Source of the DNA: Kiritimatiellia bacterium
GTDB lineage: Bacteria > Verrucomicrobiota > Kiritimatiellia > UBA8416 > JADHWI01
Direction: 5' to 3'
Length of the DNA: 64,000 nt
Assembly (NCBI GenBank): GCA_030744755.1
Contig: JASLPY010000014.1
Location: 1-64,000, forward strand
Positions within the stretch are counted from its first letter, which is position 1. Each line of letters opens with the position of its first letter. Below, in pieces: positions 32,601 through 64,000 of the stretch. A program made the position numbers and the translations under genes. The notes under the pieces are model-generated. The model did no database searches. It had not been told where the DNA came from and was given only the letters and a program-made list of their open reading frames with translations.

Positions 32601-34791
32601 CGAGGATATCTCTCGCAATGTCAAAGGAGAGGAGGGCTGGAACACGCCGCACACCGAGACTGTAGGCCTGACAAACCGGCAATACTACGCCATCGCCATT
32701 GCTTTCAACGAGGAGGGAGGCGGTGACATCCTGAACTTGACGATCAAGAAACCTGGCGGCACTGCCGAACGAATCAACCCGAGTGCACCCGGACAGGAGG
32801 GCTGGTGGTATCGCGATCTTGTCGGCATAACGGACATCGGCGTCTTAAACCAGCCCGCTTCACTTGACTATGCGTCCACAACCGCCACTTTCAACGCCAC
32901 GCTCTATGCGACTGGATCGCTGTTCGATGTCAACGTGTATTGGGGGACAAACGATGGTGGAACCGAGGCCGTCGCCTGGACCCATACTAATTACATCGGA
33001 TCATTTACAAACGTGGTATCCACCAACATCAGCTACAGGGCCATCGGTCTCGACCCCAATGTGCTTTACTACTACACGTTCTCTGCCACGAATATCTTCA
33101 CGAATATCTGGGCAAGTCCGAGCGAGATCTTCCAGGCGCTGGGTCCGCCGACCGTAAGCAATAACGCGGCGACAGGTGTTGCCATCACCAATGCCACTGT
33201 GGGCGGAGAGCTTCTGGGAGGCGGCATTGCCCAGGCAAGCATTTACTGGGGGTTGACGGACGGCGGGTCCAATGCGACATCCTGGTTGCAGACCAACGCT
33301 CTCGGCGCTGTGCTCTGGGAAGAGCCCTTCGCCACGGACATAACAACCCTTGCAGGGGGCACCTACTACTACCGCTGTTACATCACGAACTACTACGGAC
33401 ATGATTGGGCTGATTCGTCGCTCATGTTCACCACGCTGCAGGCAACTGTCTCAATTAGAGATCCATCGCCCGTACCCGAAGGAAGCGTCGGCCTGCGGAG
33501 TGTTGACTTCGACGTTTCGCTTTCCCACGCCAGCGCCTCCAACATGCTGGTCTACTACACCGTTTCAAACGGGACGGCCGAAGCCGGCATGGACTACGTC
33601 GAGAGCGCGGGAGTCTTGAGTATTCCGTCAGGCGACACCAACGGCTTGATAACCGTCGACATCAAGGGTGACAGGGTAAACGAATGGCCGTATGAAACCT
33701 TCTACTTGGTAGTCACCAACGTTCGGCATTGTGCAATACAGGACAACTCGGCAGTCGGGATCATTACTGATGATGATATCTCGACAGGCAAATGGAAAAA
33801 CAAGATGAAGATTACCTTCAGCGGATATACTCCGCCCGACCCACCGGACGACAGGTTGACCAACTTCCCGGCTCTGGTTGTTTTCAGCACAAATATGCCT
33901 GACTTTGCCTACGATCAGTTCAGCTCGCAGACCGGTAGCGATCTGCGTTTCAAGGACTCACGAGAATCACAAATGCTGGATTTCGAGATTGAGGAATGGG
34001 ACACAAACGGCAGCTCGTATGTATGGGTACGCGTGCCTGAGATTTCGGGCCCAGACTCCCATGTCTGGGCATTCTGGGGGAATGCTGATGTCACTGACCT
34101 CCCCTCCTCTACCAGCTACGGCACAACGTGGAATCCCGGCTACAGGGGTGTCTGGCACCTGGATCATATCGATGGCTCTGCGGATCTGCGCGATTCGAGC
34201 ACGAACCTTATCCATGGTACGGACGTCAACAATTCGGCAGATATTGAGGGCAAGATATCCCACGCGCAGAACTTCGTGCGCTCGTACGACCAACTGATTG
34301 AGCTTCCCGATGTGGCGGGGCCGTTGGCCTTTACTCTCACCGCTTGGATAAAGAGCCCCGACAGCACCGTGAGACGGGGCATCTTCGGTTGGAACAGCAG
34401 AGCGTTTGCAATCGAGAACGACGGCAAGCTGCTGTACGGCGAGGACGATGGGGGGTGGAAAACTCACGTGAGTACAGATACCGTGGACGACAACACCTTC
34501 AGACATGTAGCCATTACGACGGATGGCGTAACGGCCAGACTGTTCATTGATGGCCTGCAGAATGGCGGAACAGGCCTCGTCGACCTCAACCCACCCACTT
34601 CCAACATGCGCATTGGCAATACCGGACTGAGTTCCGACGACTTTGAGGGCGTCATCGATGAGGTGCGCTTCTCAGATGTGGTCCGTTCCCCCGACTGGAT
34701 CTGGGCATGCTGCATGAACACAGCATCAAACAGCACTTTCAACACTTACGAGATGGCAGCTGAGCCCGGTTTGATGCTGATTGTGAGGTAG
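23647..34791 (+). CDS. Giant secreted surface protein, 3,714 residues, Fn3-like/PA14/LamG/Calx-beta
   Basis: GTG start after GGAGGGG; signal peptide to about residue 40 (ALPLIASAG). About 18 Fn3-like modules recur, mostly in pairs: each has a VYWGTNDGG or similar strand, a GxYYYTF or YYYRCYATN strand, and a WASPS or WADST turn. Interleaved are two copies of a 197-residue domain (24214-24804 and 29473-30063), two PA14-like domains (about 26650-27240 and 32270-32850), two DUF2341 plus LamG blocks (about 27870-28840 and 33790-34740), one further LamG-like block (about 30690-31340) and one Calx-beta domain (about 33440-33780). The C-terminus is EMAAEPGLMLIVR. No enzyme motif is seen. Likely an adhesin or sugar-binding cell-surface protein. 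Confidence 0.88.
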   Translation: MSDKILSYASARPYLRRARTVGLLFVLFVVTALPLIASAGSVTLDESSVSWDDLGAANVITEGAGDAEGWSAAGSLWTPGPPVVENANGPADLTASSARLTGMLSTGGVATAYICWQADSPAGTDTGDWENVIGIGTVTQNVEFVTPVTGLLYGVTYYYRCYATNAFGGDWADSITNFLTPPPEGGAASYARIDIGASSGRTDTGDGWQQMPGTLAHNSSGNVSAQAMSSDSSDAFTIAVDNVNISDNAVGTCEWRDRGNSSSSDDLVYVAEDLIKNDNGIIRVTLGSIPAGDYDVISYHVDPGSAHSDQIEVKVSTDGGTTYSGVLSTGTAGANIAINSLTTANIDASKATFSFTAGGSDEVMVVFDGTPSGDDETSLNGLVISNILAGAINITNRSETGISTTGATFNATLSAPDSRFDVYLYWGTNDAGSAEGLWGNTNYIASHTNVASTNITFATNGLAESQQYYYTFKAQNDATNLWASPSITFATIHQPDVNNSTGATPAIGYATLNGNLSNGSLADVHVYWGTSDGETNTSAWANTNVMGELHEGDFSTNTTTDLLYGITYYYRCYATNVVSTDWADTTATFLTLDPGVSITNNAETGLTTTSATFNATLHAPGSTFDVHVYWGTNDGGIAAGDWRNTNYAGSYTDLASTNLSFTTNGLAQGQRYHYAFMGQNAATNMWASPSITFKTVHEPVINNSTGAVPAIGSATLNGELTGGSRADVYVYWGTTDGETNAASWASTNLMGELREGAFSTNTSRDLLYGVTYYYRSYAINAVDADWADSTAVFLTLDPGVSITNNAETGLSSTSAAFNVTLEATGSVFHLYAYWGTNDGGAAEGIWGNTNYIGSYSNVASSNITFATNGLAVGGTYHYTFMARNDATNMWATPSISFTTIHHPAIDNSTGSVSAVGYATLNGELTDGVSANVYVYWGATDGETNGSAWANTNELGELAEGLFSSGTTTDLLYGVTHYYRCYATNELGHDWADSTVGLTTLPPVAESHADGLEETLFDRQNISGANPRNNIQGYIDAILSGNSVQGILTAHLDYQNDAAFDARAAELGSPDWDPNSGPGSEDFSGLWVCDFTPTEGGAWGFRFNGCDDNASMWIDDDQNGVFESTADRFYDRGCCGGSGDRNTPSITAGQTYRLGFVVQDTGGGGHFRDLEFKPPSGSWTDLDPGDPAQAGLWQYSLGVVSPALAITNRPATSILAYTAELNAGLAASGAVFDIYAFWGQTNESTNASSWATNAFVGSYTNFSGNVSYPIAGLLANTSNYFTFKASNMLEEIWATNVLSFKTLEAPHDPAVTNIGFTAAIGTATLMGELTDGSVADIYLYWGTTDVGTNATAWAHTNFVGEFAEGTFETDTTDNLLFGVQYYYRCYATNEAAANWADATSTFSVADPSGDANRLRLRISFTNHTGGPLTNFPALVRLSTNIAEFAYDAFLSDAGNDLRFWNDDESTELNYEIEDWNTNGTSYVWVQIREFTNNCHIWASWGDVSATNQEAYSTDGSVWSEGFGAVWHMSEAPGTATAADSTTNGRNGTLQSMDPPNDWVAGSINGALDFDGGDDWVSTPYNIDETDDGGGATFSAWVYPRTADGDHEVVFSTDNGGWDWTLELDSGSGGNWEVFSGENQRGSGHLADLNRWQHVAAVYDPSAGNIKVYKNGQPNTVTFLSYDTNDENLRLGNDSFGSFDGIIDEARASQLTRSADWIMASYSNQCNGSTFATYEASAGATIQNGGYRLGGTTTVINATLYASNATYNVIAYWNTTDGGTNATAWTNSHEVGTFTHIETNLSTTATGLTMATPYYFTFRATNVLGADVWAEPSVAFTTLEQPSVTNAGATPAIGTAALNGELIAGTKADVYVFWGTTDGGTNAAAWANTNALGELAEGPFAANQAGLLYGLTYYYRCYAANLVGEDWADSTEWFTTPPMTATGFYARIDIGASGGRTDTDDGWQLMPGTPGHNSSVNVSAQPMASDSSDAFTIAVDNVNTGGNGIGICEWRDRGNSSSSEALVYTAEDLVKNDSGIIRVTLGSIPRGEYHVTSYHVDPGSAHSDQIDVRVSSDGGKTYSGVLSTGTTGANIALNNLTAAGIEATRAEFSFTASGTDDVRIVFDGTPSADDETPLNGLVISNALANPVFAIFNTAVSDLSTTSATLNATLEGTGSVFDVYVYWGTNEGGAAEGTWGNTNYVGSYSNAASTNVGFNTNGLVLGGTYHYTFQAQNPFTNLWASPSTTFRTVHQPVLNNAGGGDPAVGFATLNGDLTGGSLAEINVYWGDADGETNAAAWGNTNVVGEISEGAFATDTTNGLLYGIQYYYRCYATNEAGEAWAGSTAGFVTAPLSQLITNGLLAHWDAGSIKDLADGAQVESWENSQNPGTYDLTRNSGGPTYVASETDINDMPAVFFSNGGNDSFSFSKIDTMRTVFWVLRDSSPGDIQFLFGDGGSYHFHGDDNGDIWHPTHTHNNIKNGSTELNGVAVNGTTTPHPTDFSIISVVTLGNVEASRLSYDRGISGRSWEGEIAEILVYDVALSSEEEDEVGGYLATKYGLTTAYPPGGVSIGIFNAAQTDLSHRSATFNATLAATQSVFDVYVYWGTNDGVSTTSGWDNTNFIGWYTNIDSTNLDFEATELTHGTQYYYTFLAQNAAVDAWASPSISFMTDTVITNTAATDMTFTSGLFNAMLYAPSNSYDLSVYWGTNDGGTTEGAWGHTNTVGSLGNVASTNINYATNGMEHSTRYYYTFCATEGAYHAWARPSTRFFTHGRPFIENIGATAEIGYATMSGELLSAGGATTTVHVYWGESDGGTNAADWAHTNIVGERPEGTFDSDTANGLIYGVQYYYRCYAINSNGMAWADSTVDFSTLPPVVATGPNSLNYAFYDGAAPSSLQNIDDGVVNGDNGGLFDLQPSPQGSWPTDVRGKTNWTGEVWQDASMSESYCQMWWGVFRPPLAGTYEFYMSGDDWEILWIDRNQNSEFEAASGEDISRNVKGEEGWNTPHTETVGLTNRQYYAIAIAFNEEGGGDILNLTIKKPGGTAERINPSAPGQEGWWYRDLVGITDIGVLNQPASLDYASTTATFNATLYATGSLFDVNVYWGTNDGGTEAVAWTHTNYIGSFTNVVSTNISYRAIGLDPNVLYYYTFSATNIFTNIWASPSEIFQALGPPTVSNNAATGVAITNATVGGELLGGGIAQASIYWGLTDGGSNATSWLQTNALGAVLWEEPFATDITTLAGGTYYYRCYITNYYGHDWADSSLMFTTLQATVSIRDPSPVPEGSVGLRSVDFDVSLSHASASNMLVYYTVSNGTAEAGMDYVESAGVLSIPSGDTNGLITVDIKGDRVNEWPYETFYLVVTNVRHCAIQDNSAVGIITDDDISTGKWKNKMKITFSGYTPPDPPDDRLTNFPALVVFSTNMPDFAYDQFSSQTGSDLRFKDSRESQMLDFEIEEWDTNGSSYVWVRVPEISGPDSHVWAFWGNADVTDLPSSTSYGTTWNPGYRGVWHLDHIDGSADLRDSSTNLIHGTDVNNSADIEGKISHAQNFVRSYDQLIELPDVAGPLAFTLTAWIKSPDSTVRRGIFGWNSRAFAIENDGKLLYGEDDGGWKTHVSTDTVDDNTFRHVAITTDGVTARLFIDGLQNGGTGLVDLNPPTSNMRIGNTGLSSDDFEGVIDEVRFSDVVRSPDWIWACCMNTASNSTFNTYEMAAEPGLMLIVR

Positions 34792-35901: not shown

Positions 35902-37305
35902 CTACGCCAGCTTGTAGAACTCTTCCCAGCCCTTGCGCGGCTGGTTGCCCTTAAGCAGCTCGTTGGCTCTCTTATTGTCCGTAATCTGCCCGGTCTTCGT
36001 GTCCAGCTTGAACGTTCCACCAATGCGCTGTGCGATGCAGCCGAGGGCGAAGATCTGCGTCAGGGGACCAGCGACTTCGAATGACGAATGACACGTTTCC
36101 TTACCCATCGCGGAAAGCAGGAAGTTATCCATATGATCGGAATGTTTTTCGGTGATCTTGGGCACTTTCGACGCCATTTCTTTCATCTTGCTTTCAGGAA
36201 CGATGCGCAACGTAGCTCCGTGGGTCCCTCCCATGAAGACAAGGTCATCACTGTAAATAATCTTCCCTTTGGACGGAGCCTTGATGCCAAGCTCTTTCGA
36301 TACAGGTGGCGTGTTCCCCGTACCGTCGAACCACCGCAGCGTCATCGCAGGCATGGTCGGGCCACGCTCCGCGAAATCAAAAGCAATGGTCGACTTCATG
36401 GGGTAGATGAATTCGTTCTTCCCTACAAGCTTCTCGGTCCTGATCGTATGCGGCAAACCAAGCTCAAGGAACTGGTGAATAGTATCTATGGTATGCGCCG
36501 CCCAGTCCCCTATGGCGCCACAGCCGTAGTCATGCCATCCGCGCCAGTTGCCGCTGTCGTATTTCTTGCTATAAGGATGCATCGGTGCCGTACCTGCCCA
36601 GACATCCCAGTTCATACCCTCGGGCATGGGTTCTTCGGGTGGGAATGCCTTAACATCGCCTCAGGGATGCCAGCGGCGGCCACCGCACATGCAGGCGTCC
36701 ACTTTTCTGACATTCTTGATGATCCCTGCCTCTACCCATGCCTTGAACTGAAGATAGTTGTTTCCCGAATGACCCTGGTTCCCCATCTGGCAGGCAACCT
36801 TGTACTTCTTTTCGGCGGCCATCATCAGTTCACATTCCTGGAAAGTATGTGCCATTGGCTTCTCTACGTAAACCGATGCACCGTTAGCCATGGCCAGCAT
36901 GGATATCGGAAAGTGAGAGTGGTCAGGAGTGCCGTTGGTGACCGCGTCTATCTTGCCTCCCATTTCGTCGAACATCTTCCTGAAGTCGCTGTAGACCTTG
37001 GCGTCCTTGTTCTTGTTCTTGAATCCGTTAGCGCGAGACGGGACTACGTCGCACAAAGCGACACAGTTCGCCCTCCCTTTGCTCATGGCCCAGCCGCCTA
37101 TGGAGCCACCTCGCTGCGAGCAGCCGATAATGGCCAGGTTCAATTTCTCGCTCGGTGCCTTCTGTGAATTGGGCTTCGAATCCTTGGACTTGGCCACGCA
37201 GTATGATGGGGCAATGTGGAAGGTGGAAGCTGCCAGCGCCCCGGCCATAAACGTGCGACGTTTCATTGCGGGAAGTTTGCCTTCGGATTTCTTCTTGTTT
37301 TTCAT
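35902..37305 (-). pseudogene. Tat-exported Gfo/Idh/MocA oxidoreductase with in-frame TGA
   Basis: Read from the ATG at 37305 the protein begins with a twin-arginine signal (KRRTFMAGALAAS). A Rossmann-like IGCSQRGGSIGG motif and VEKPMAHTFQE (the EKP catalytic motif) follow. The frame reaches RRWHP and meets a TGA at 36661-36663, about codon 215. The same frame then continues for 252 codons (GDVKAFPPEEPMPEGMNWDV) to a normal stop, with the expected C-terminal domain (DYGCGAIGDWAAHTIDTIHQ). A single base change accounts for the stop. No frameshift is present. Either a recent nonsense mutation, a sequencing error, or (less likely) recoding. Confidence 0.85.
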
Positions 37306-37406
37306 GACGCCCTTTCTTTTGTGTGTACTCGTCGAACTCACGCCCGGGACTCTATCATCGAAGCTGAGAGTTATCAATACCGTATGAGGCGTTTCCGATT
37401 GATCCT

Positions 37407-37620: not shown

Positions 37621-39135
37621 GTGAGACTGCGGCATATAGACAACCCGCTGAGCGAGATAAGGCGCGACTGGTGGCGTTTTCTGCTCTTCTATGCCGGAAT
37701 AGCCTTATTCGTGCCGGTTTGGTTCAACGCCGCTAAGCGTGGCATGCTTTCGGCAGAGTACTCCCACATCACCCTAACCCCCATCCTGGCGGCAGTAGTC
37801 TACCTATGGACAAAACAGAAGGGCGCCGATGCTGCGGCGGAACGCTCATCGTGGATCCTGTGGGCCGCCGGCCTGGGGCTTCATGCAGCCGGCGCCTGGC
37901 TGGACAAAACCTCTCTCTCACAGCTCGGGTTCCCCTTATTGCTAACCGGATCGGCGGGAGCCCTCTTCGGCCGGAACCAAGGAAAGCGCCTGCTGGTTCC
38001 GTCCTTGCTCCTGTTCCTGGGGCTCGGACTGCCGTCCGAACTGATGCTGACCGCATTCAGAGGCCCCCTGCGCCTCTTCGCCGCCGGATTTGCGTTTGAC
38101 TCCATTGGCACCATCATGCCACAGCTCGCGCCATACACGTTGAAAGGATCGGTCATCGTCACACTTCTTGATACATTTGACGTAGCGGCGGAATGTAGCA
38201 GCGTCCGGTCCCTGACCGCCCTGCTCATCCTGGGCACGCTGGTGGGTTGGTATTGCCGGCTCTCCCTTCGCGCCAGGTGCAGTTATGCCATAGGCCTTGT
38301 TATTGCCGGTATCGCCTCCAAGGTTCTACAGATCTGCCTCACTTTCGGTACGGTCGTAGGCAGCGAACAGCTATTCACCCTTCAAGGAGCACACACGTTC
38401 TGGGACCTGTCCATTTTCACTTTGCTCGTCCTGTGCAGTCCTCTCATCGCGCGCGCCGCCAACAAGTGGCATCCACGCCTGAGCATCGTGCGCGCGGTTG
38501 CGCTGGTGCTGGTCCTGTCCTATGCAGTCAGCCTGACACTAATGGCACAGCAAAGCGCCACGACCCCACTCGTGGTCGAGTTCGGCACGCACCTGACAGG
38601 TACCGTACTGGTGGATGGATCCAGAGTGCCGTCGGCCATTCTCCCGTTGGCGACACCAGGCAAGGAGGGGCTCTTGAGGTGGTCCTGGCTCTTTACAAGC
38701 GGACTTTTTCACTGGGATATGGCGCACTTACTGACAAACCTGCTTGTCCTTCTGCTTCTCGGCGAGGCCCTTGGAAACAGACTGGGGCGATGGATGCTTG
38801 TCGTACTGCTTGGCGGGCAGGCGACAGCCTGCGCCGCAGGTCTGCTGGTCCTGCCACCGGGGGCAACCGCGGCCACTACCGTATTCGTCGGTGCCAGCGG
38901 AGCTGTCTCAGCACTTTTTGGAGCCTTTCTTGTGGCTATGCTTACCGGCGGGCGAAAACTTGCGGGAATTATTCTCTGCGCCGTCTACTCCGCAGGCATA
39001 GCCCTGAACGCCGCAACAATAAGGCCGGGACTGAGCTTCTCCGTATCATCACATTTCGCAGCGCTGGCATTCGGACTACTTGCCGGACTCCTGATCCTGC
39101 GCCTACGGGCAAACATCCGCGACGGACAAGCCTAA
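37621..39135 (+). CDS. Exosortase-like / rhomboid protease fusion
   Basis: A 504-residue polytopic membrane protein with GTG start. Residues 20-290 resemble exosortase/EpsH: YSHITLTPILAAVVYLW near 47, then ECSSVRSLTALLILG with candidate active-site Cys192 and Arg196. The usual N-x-x-R arginine is Gln237 (SKVLQI), and a His at 258 (GAHTFWD) could be the third residue. Residues 340-495 form a rhomboid core: HWDMAHLLTN (364-373), the GASGA serine motif with Ser426, and His478 in SSHFAALAFGLLAG. The pairing resembles the exosortase-protease fusion XrtE but with a rhomboid instead of a CAAX protease. I know of no described exosortase-rhomboid fusion. Probably processes C-terminal sorting signals. 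Confidence 0.8.
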   Translation: MRLRHIDNPLSEIRRDWWRFLLFYAGIALFVPVWFNAAKRGMLSAEYSHITLTPILAAVVYLWTKQKGADAAAERSSWILWAAGLGLHAAGAWLDKTSLSQLGFPLLLTGSAGALFGRNQGKRLLVPSLLLFLGLGLPSELMLTAFRGPLRLFAAGFAFDSIGTIMPQLAPYTLKGSVIVTLLDTFDVAAECSSVRSLTALLILGTLVGWYCRLSLRARCSYAIGLVIAGIASKVLQICLTFGTVVGSEQLFTLQGAHTFWDLSIFTLLVLCSPLIARAANKWHPRLSIVRAVALVLVLSYAVSLTLMAQQSATTPLVVEFGTHLTGTVLVDGSRVPSAILPLATPGKEGLLRWSWLFTSGLFHWDMAHLLTNLLVLLLLGEALGNRLGRWMLVVLLGGQATACAAGLLVLPPGATAATTVFVGASGAVSALFGAFLVAMLTGGRKLAGIILCAVYSAGIALNAATIRPGLSFSVSSHFAALAFGLLAGLLILRLRANIRDGQA

Positions 39136-61642: not shown

Positions 61643-64000
61643 CTACCTCAGCATGAAGATCGCTCCGGGCTCGGTGCCGGCTTCTGTCTTGAAGGTGGCC
61701 GTTGGCGTTGCCCATGCATTCAGTATCACGTTCGAGGCACGGAACCGGTAGTAGTAGTCCGTGAAGCCGATCAGTCCGGCCAGATCGTTGCTGATCACAC
61801 CGGTAACCTGGTTCCCTGCGATGAAGTTCGTATTCTCCCAGGCAGTCTCAACACCCAGCCCGTCTGTTGTACCCCAGTACACCGACACCGTCGTCGGTAT
61901 CCCGCCGGTCGAGGTCAGGTTGCCCACCACTGTTGCCGCATTGTAGGTGATGTTCGTTGCGTACAGGTTTGTGATCGCCGGAGGATCTCCCGCACCGCCC
62001 GTGCTGAAGCTGTACAGCGGCGGCGCACCCCACAGATCCTCCACCGCGTTGGTTGCCCGGAAGGTGAAGAAGTAGGTCGACGCTCCCTGCAGTCCTGCCA
62101 CAGGATGGTCGATCGTAACTGCGGTACCGGTGTAACTTCCCAGGTACGCTGACTCATCGTAGTTGGTGGTGGTCCCTTCGTTGCTCAGACCCCAGTAGGC
62201 CCAGACCTCAAGCACCGCGCCCGTGGGCACCACCAGGTCCGCATGCAGCGTGGCCGTGTTGATCAATACGTCGGTCGCCGGCTGGTTGGTGATGGACATC
62301 GGGTCCAACTCCTCGGGCTCGTATGCCGTGGTCAGACCATACTTGACTTCAAGGTACGCACCCACGATCTCGAGCTCCTCGTCACTCAGCACGCGGTTGT
62401 ACATTATGACCTCGGCGATCTCGCTGTGGCCAACCAGCTGGTTATCCCGGTTGCCGTTCAGCTGAAGTCGACGCGGCTCGTAGTCGGTGTTATGCCCGCT
62501 GGTGTCGGCTGAGGTAATCAGGTTGCCGTCCTTCCAGAACCAAGCCTCGGGATCCGGCAGATCGTTGTGGTGCCCCGCATGTATGTGCCAGTCGTAATTG
62601 AGGCTGCTTCCGCCCTGGTGAATCCAATTTCCTGGAGTGTACCACCTTTCGTCCCTCTGGCCGTCGAACCCGAATCTCCAGTCGTGATCGCGAGACCCAA
62701 TCACCACCTCGTTTTCGCCGCCGCCGTTGTATCGGGCGACGGAGAAGATGGTATAGTTGTGATGGGTGGGCTCGAAGTTGAAGGTGGTGGACAGGCGGTC
62801 ATCGTTATCGAACTTGACCACCGGCTGGCCGTTGGGACCGCCGCTGGTCCAGTACTGCGGATCGCTAACGCGTATATCCGCATCGTTGCCCGATCCGGAT
62901 TTGTCCACCCACGTGTCGGGAATAGGCCAGAGGTTCATGTTCTGGGCATGGGCCGGGTTGTTATCCGGATTGCCGTCGCCGTCGACGTCATCCGCCGCCA
63001 GCCACAGTGTCATCCCGTTGGTCACGGTCATAGGCGCCACCGTGGCCTGCTTCAGCGTAGTGAAGTTGGTCGATGAAGACGCCCAGGCCCCACCCAGGTC
63101 ATTGCTCGCCCAGCTGCGATAGAAGTAGCGCACGCCGTAGTACAGCCCGGTCACGTTCACCGAGAATGCCTCACCCTGCGCAACACCCGGGAAGTTGGTA
63201 GTGCTGTCCCATGCCGACGCGGTCGTACCGCCATCGGTTGCGCCCCAGTAGATCTTCGTGTCGCACGTTCCGCCAGCGACCAGCGTACCACTGATCTCCG
63301 CCTCGCTGAGCTTCGTCAGCACGGGAGCATTGTTGTCGACTTCTACGTTGCCGTAGGTCGTGAAGCTCTCCGATGAGAACGCCCAGCCCTCGTCGCCAAG
63401 CGTATTGCTGCCGTAGGTCGTATACCAGTAGTCCGTATCGATACCGAGACCTTCCACCTTGTTAGAGAACAGCCCCAGGTTCAGGCTGCCCATGTAGACA
63501 TTGGTCTCCCAATTGCCTTTGAGCTGGGCCCCGTCGTTGGTGCCGTAGTAGAACCACACGTAAGTGGGAGACGAACTGGTGTACACCAGGTCGCCCATCA
63601 GCCACACATTTGTTGTGCCGAGATTCGTAACCCCCGCGGCCGTCGTGATCGACACGTCCGCCGGGCTCAGCGCGGCTTCGGCGGTATTACCGTAGGCACC
63701 CATGTTGATACGGTTGCCGTTGGGCGATGGCTCGTTGGAGTAGTCGGCAGTACTACCACCGTCAAGAGCCGCACTATTGGTAGCGTCGAACACGTACCCG
63801 CCGGACGTCCAGCGCCCGTACGGGCTCTTCAGGTGCAGGTCATCAAACTCGGAACCGAAATGCGCATCGCCCGTAACGGTTCCCACCCCGTAGGTCACTG
63901 TGCCCTGGATGTATGGCGTCGTATTCGCCCCGCTCATGGAACTGTAATACACGTACACATTACCGCCCTGCCGATGGATATCGTTGGTCTCGTAGCTGTT
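61643..64000 (-). CDS. Large surface protein, C-terminal part: anchor-Q/Fn3-like/LamG
   Basis: The frame is open to the right edge, so only the last 785 or so residues are seen. The first 100 match the end of a beta-helix with choice-of-anchor-Q domain (DAHFGSEFDDLHLKSPYGRW, NRINMGAYGNTAEAALS). Two Fn3-like modules (YYGTNDGAQLKGNWETN; IYWGATDGGTTASAWDS) precede a LamG-like domain, and two more follow (AYWGLSNEGTTTNYD; VYWGTTDGLGVETAWEN). It ends EPGAIFMLR. Modules and ending mirror the giant protein at 23647, so both are products of the same family and probably share an export or anchoring route. Confidence 0.85.
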   Translation of the reverse strand, partial: NSYETNDIHRQGGNVYVYYSSMSGANTTPYIQGTVTYGVGTVTGDAHFGSEFDDLHLKSPYGRWTSGGYVFDATNSAALDGGSTADYSNEPSPNGNRINMGAYGNTAEAALSPADVSITTAAGVTNLGTTNVWLMGDLVYTSSSPTYVWFYYGTNDGAQLKGNWETNVYMGSLNLGLFSNKVEGLGIDTDYWYTTYGSNTLGDEGWAFSSESFTTYGNVEVDNNAPVLTKLSEAEISGTLVAGGTCDTKIYWGATDGGTTASAWDSTTNFPGVAQGEAFSVNVTGLYYGVRYFYRSWASNDLGGAWASSSTNFTTLKQATVAPMTVTNGMTLWLAADDVDGDGNPDNNPAHAQNMNLWPIPDTWVDKSGSGNDADIRVSDPQYWTSGGPNGQPVVKFDNDDRLSTTFNFEPTHHNYTIFSVARYNGGGENEVVIGSRDHDWRFGFDGQRDERWYTPGNWIHQGGSSLNYDWHIHAGHHNDLPDPEAWFWKDGNLITSADTSGHNTDYEPRRLQLNGNRDNQLVGHSEIAEVIMYNRVLSDEELEIVGAYLEVKYGLTTAYEPEELDPMSITNQPATDVLINTATLHADLVVPTGAVLEVWAYWGLSNEGTTTNYDESAYLGSYTGTAVTIDHPVAGLQGASTYFFTFRATNAVEDLWGAPPLYSFSTGGAGDPPAITNLYATNITYNAATVVGNLTSTGGIPTTVSVYWGTTDGLGVETAWENTNFIAGNQVTGVISNDLAGLIGFTDYYYRFRASNVILNAWATPTATFKTEAGTEPGAIFMLR

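Follow-up and report, generated by a model that had tools for sequence, protein, structure and literature searches.

Exosortases are membrane enzymes unrelated to rhomboids, and both families have been linked to the removal of C-terminal membrane tails from surface proteins. The nearest architectural precedent for an exosortase and a membrane protease in one polypeptide is XrtE (exosortase E/protease, VPEID-CTERM, TIGR04162), whose protease is CAAX-type. Rhombosortases (TIGR03902) are rhomboid-superfamily serine proteases, and GlpG-type rhomboids have a six-TM fold, a Ser/His pair, and a His and an Asn in the oxyanion region. In archaeosortase A, Cys173, Arg214, and Arg253 are critical for activity (PMC9263693). 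The protein described here ties an exosortase physically to a rhomboid, and the question of whether the two share substrates thereby becomes testable. Should its exosortase half prove to be a pseudoenzyme used for docking, the exosortase family would gain an example of this kind.

The gene lies in a 64,000-nucleotide stretch of a Kiritimatiellia genome (contig JASLPY010000014.1), referred to below as the window. Its features are as follows.

37621..39135, + strand: fusion gene, exosortase-like domain plus rhomboid protease (504 aa, GTG start)
37699..38436, + strand: Exosortase_EpsH domain, aa 27-272, eight predicted TM helices (PF09721, E=2.4e-24; AlphaFold; topology)
38194..38196, + strand: Cys192, putative exosortase nucleophile, kept (Cys in 31/31 relatives)
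38320..38322, + strand: Lys234 in place of an invariant Asn (Asn in 31/31 relatives)
38329..38331, + strand: Gln237 in place of the catalytic Arg (Arg in 31/31 relatives)
38392..38394, + strand: His258, retained, with HTFWD replacing HDYSG (His in 29/29 relatives with letters)
38437..38679, + strand: linker, aa 273-353 (end of the last exosortase helix, basic cytoplasmic loop, rhomboid TM1, L1 loop)
38680..39102, + strand: rhomboid domain, aa 354-494 (PF01694, E=7.1e-13; GlpG fold match)
38710..38739, + strand: HWDMAHLLTN motif, aa 364-373, with His364, His369, and Asn373 (alignment, topology)
38896..38898, + strand: rhomboid catalytic Ser426, in GASG (alignment, topology)
39052..39054, + strand: rhomboid catalytic His478 (alignment, topology)

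This 504-residue membrane protein is encoded by a single ORF with no stop between the halves. Codon-based coding signal runs in the ORF's own frame across the junction and linker, weakening near 38581. Because the signal is unbroken in one frame, a frame error does not explain the joining. The junction loop is basic and thus probably cytoplasmic, as the topology requires. The first-pass annotation had proposed an exosortase-like module fused to a rhomboid, and the proposal stands: both Pfam domains are significant and above their curated cut-offs in one frame, and the fusion looks genuine. The ORF, its coordinates, and the residues listed there, namely CSSVRS (Cys192), Gln237, His258, HWDMAHLLTN, GASGA (Ser426), and SSHFAALAFG (His478), are all present.

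The N-terminal half belongs to PF09721 (Exosortase_EpsH), scoring 86.5 bits against a curated cut-off of 25.7 over profile positions 5-246 of 254 (hmmscan); the earlier concern that a profile search might yield no exosortase match did not materialize. Against the named NCBIfam exosortases (XrtA, D, W, E, and others), all matches listed for the fusion are below cut-off, including 8TM_EpsH (60.4 versus 105.55), and no TIGR04162 (XrtE) match was obtained at E<=1. XrtE also differs in protease class, the protease of the fusion being a serine rhomboid. The exosortase tree separates this half from the TPR-fused exosortases and puts it on the side of XrtA/EpsI, with the longest terminal branch (4.17 versus a median of 0.51, about eightfold). 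With PF09721 proteins and XrtA and EpsI-associated exosortases, it shares the near whole-profile match, eight TM helices, and the Cys and His. Unlike the XrtA/EpsI-associated enzymes, it has lost the catalytic Arg, the Asn, and the Gly of CSG, and carries a rhomboid where some relatives carry EpsI.

These losses were defined by comparison with 31 aligned relatives, and a larger alignment agrees by inspection. Val188, Cys192, and Ser193, invariant in the relatives, are all kept in the fusion. Three residues found in 31/31 relatives are replaced (Gly194 by Ser, Asn234 by Lys, and Arg237 by Gln), as are Pro136 by Gly (Pro in 30/31) and Gly262 by Asp (Gly in 28 of the 29 relatives with letters). 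Within the Cys/Arg/His triad of functional exosortases, Cys192 and His258 are present and Gln237 replaces the Arg. The first-pass annotation had remarked on this Gln; the case is stronger than it stated, since every relative has Arg and Asn234, Gly194, Pro136, and Gly262 are also changed.

The TPR-type exosortases include L002 (G000:C33:62321-62965), L004 (G000:C22:14374-15099), and the relatives L040-L042, L046, and L048-L054. These proteins are 1340-1400 aa long; the exosortase domain comes first, and the chain also carries TPR-like repeats (weak PrsT/TPR matches). Most of the 18 listed genomes at order level have exosortase-domain proteins of this size, often two apiece. The 13 TPR-type proteins sampled cluster together (support 100), with the Cys, Asn, Arg, and His conserved.

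Residues 354-494 match PF01694 (Rhomboid) at 49.4 bits against a curated cut-off of 22.6 (hmmscan). The motifs H364-WDMA-H369-LLT-N373, G-A-S426-G, and H478 fall on residues conserved in 16 rhomboid-superfamily proteins of the phylum, and the full catalytic set is kept, comprising Ser426/His478 and the oxyanion residues. The model of this half matches E. coli GlpG (2xow) with E=5.2e-4, probability 1.00, and a TM-score of 0.72 on the target. The PF01694 match and the Ser/His pair in a six-TM fold place it among the rhomboid proteases. The fusion has all the GlpG-type features named above but adds the N-terminal exosortase domain, and its WR motif is altered to WSW. Its rhomboid-half terminal branch is 2.53 (median 0.83), and no other rhomboid was detected in its 90%-complete genome.

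By its motifs and tree position, the rhomboid half is an ordinary rhomboid and not a rhombosortase, and the link to rhombosortases raised in the first-pass annotation was not borne out. The fusion matches TIGR03902 weakly (30.5 bits versus a cut-off of 84). The tree separates four rhombosortases from the fusion, which groups with ordinary rhomboids (support 94). The fusion has HLLTN/GASG (H-x4-H-x3-N), whereas the rhombosortases aligned here have HLLLD-like/GLSG, and a search of the genome for GlyGly-CTERM at E<=1 gave 0 matches. In the same order, L062 (G018:C322:236-706) scores strongly as a rhombosortase (108.5 bits), and its HWD motif resembles that of the fusion's rhomboid.

The whole protein has a predicted topology of 8+6 TM helices with both active sites periplasmic, which fits the positive-inside rule (21 K/R inside, 10 outside). 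Cys192, residues 234/237, and His258 are predicted to be periplasmic, on the same side as the rhomboid catalytic residues. Eight TM helices are predicted for the exosortase half, with both ends cytoplasmic and an extra predicted helix (139-165) taken as interfacial; the choice of eight is an interpretation guided by the known exosortase helix count and the fit of the charge pattern. AlphaFold models, built separately for the two halves, have a pLDDT of 77 for the exosortase half and a mean pLDDT of 77 for the rhomboid half. A PDB fold search with the exosortase half returned no match at E<=0.001.

Protein searches covering 38 relatives, 388 genomes sampled from the phylum, and 346 genomes of the class yielded no fused homologue; the matches inspected were only unfused exosortases or unfused rhomboids. 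Nor was one found by tblastn of plasmids or by pattern scans of genome and viral contigs, which require near-identical short peptides and would let distant fusions escape. The nearest matches are unfused exosortases and unfused rhomboids, each at about 30% identity. Exosortases occur in 221/240 and rhomboids in 190/240 genomes of the class; thus, both components are commonplace, and it is their joining that is rare. The first-pass annotation had reasoned that homologues with the two halves as separate genes would speak against the fusion. Every relative detected for either half is indeed unfused, but none is an orthologue showing the gene split. One lookalike, a 503-aa ORF with a rhomboid (L017:1456-2964, - strand), was rejected because it is without an exosortase domain; it comes from another family of the phylum and combines a C-terminal rhomboid with an N-terminal stretch of about 340 residues that matches nothing in Pfam.

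No exosortase-rhomboid fusion was found in the papers listed by the literature searches, and a full-text search of the same literature pairing 'exosortase' with 'pseudoenzyme' came back empty. The fusion has been seen once, and the roles proposed for it are inferred.

The neighbours of the gene encode a DUF6807 protein, an oxidoreductase, a NIPSNAP protein, and a DAHP synthase/chorismate mutase. EpsI and PEP-CTERM genes were not recognised among them, and there is no sorting operon around the gene. The oxidoreductase (GFO/IDH/MocA; window 35902-37377, - strand) looks split into two ORFs, 36661-37377 and 35902-36627, which may reflect a pseudogene or an error in the assembly. The genome has three further exosortases, one canonical with an adjoining EpsI-like reading frame and two large and TPR-bearing. 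It also has five PEP-CTERM proteins, none adjoining the fusion, and the canonical exosortase sits elsewhere. The first-pass annotation had suggested a search for C-terminal signals that co-occur with such fusions. No CTERM family was found that could pair with this one, and no recognisable sorting substrate or accessory gene is adjacent. A survey of about 610 kb of the genome, window included, found no new abundant C-terminal tail family (TM-plus-basic); its only finds were a known PEP-CTERM protein and a single isolated candidate that was weak.

That the rhomboid site is complete and the exosortase site degenerate leads us to favour a docking role for the exosortase half or, with more reserve, a mere anchor. 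We tentatively put first a reading in which the rhomboid is active and the degenerate exosortase joined to it may serve for docking. The rhomboid would cut transmembrane segments near the outer leaflet. The exosortase half, its transpeptidase chemistry presumably lost or altered, would be a membrane-embedded dock that hands the rhomboid either a C-terminal transmembrane tail or the stub that exosortase cleavage leaves behind. Such docking would parallel XrtE, in which an exosortase is fused with a different membrane protease. Consistent with this proposal are two significant domains in one continuously coding ORF, complete rhomboid motifs on a GlpG-like model, the charge topology, and a sole detected rhomboid versus three other exosortases. 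The R237Q, N234K, and G194S changes at 31/31 sites and the long exosortase branch also point this way. However, Cys192, His258, and the overall domain are retained, which speaks against the exosortase function having simply been lost; the branch of the rhomboid half is long too, so fast evolution is not limited to the exosortase half; and the fusion is known from one genome, outside any sorting operon. Because the exosortase half has lost residues that its relatives keep, the protein is probably a protease carrying a domain repurposed as a helper, and not an entire new sorting system. The first-pass annotation had ranked the locus as its leading candidate for an undescribed system; the unusual architecture survives, but its singleton status in the class and the long exosortase branch lend the idea of a system little weight.

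A plausible competitor is that the fusion is accidental, the exosortase half decaying and serving at most as a membrane anchor while the protein acts as the cell's rhomboid. Its singleton status among 346 class genomes, unrelated metabolic neighbours, five lost near-invariant sites, very long exosortase branch, and position as the only rhomboid detected all suit this account. Yet the open full-length frame, the TM pattern, the Cys and His, and a Pfam score 60 bits over cut-off exceed what free decay would leave.

An unlikely reading is a bifunctional enzyme whose exosortase half is active with altered chemistry and whose rhomboid clears the cleaved C-terminal membrane stub. Cys192 and His258 are kept, and Lys234, one helical turn before Gln237, could supply the positive charge (N-x-x-R to K-x-x-Q). 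Since the two residues are three apart on one helix of the model, the amide and the cation may have exchanged positions without either being lost. Against this, Gly194, Pro136, and Gly262 are changed as well, the swap occurs in no relative, and no cognate CTERM family appeared in the tail survey or two family searches. Its fullest form, in which a relocated-cation exosortase (Lys234 for Arg237) would cleave or transfer the tail and the rhomboid remove the stub, making this the first exosortase-rhomboid sorting enzyme, seems more doubtful still.

An assembly or sequencing artefact merging two genes is very improbable: the draft assembly comprises 530 contigs and the adjoining oxidoreductase is broken into two ORFs, but the junction has no stop or frame change, the coding signal keeps one frame throughout, and the basic loop is probably cytoplasmic, as the topology demands.

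Other C-terminal tails were seen in the genome. Two giant surface-type proteins (3714 aa, and a 6261-aa open frame in L090) terminate in EPG-x-four hydrophobics-R-stop, with the tails EPGLMLIVR (window 34762-34791, + strand) and EPGAIFMLR (61643-61672, - strand). These two occurrences, both within the window, are the only ones of the pattern in the genome; it may represent a C-terminal tail or paralogy. The large proteins at L101:1-2937 (+ strand) and L111:3-5756 (+ strand) have short hydrophobic tails, STVILVR and KAVFIFE, that are perhaps EPG-related.
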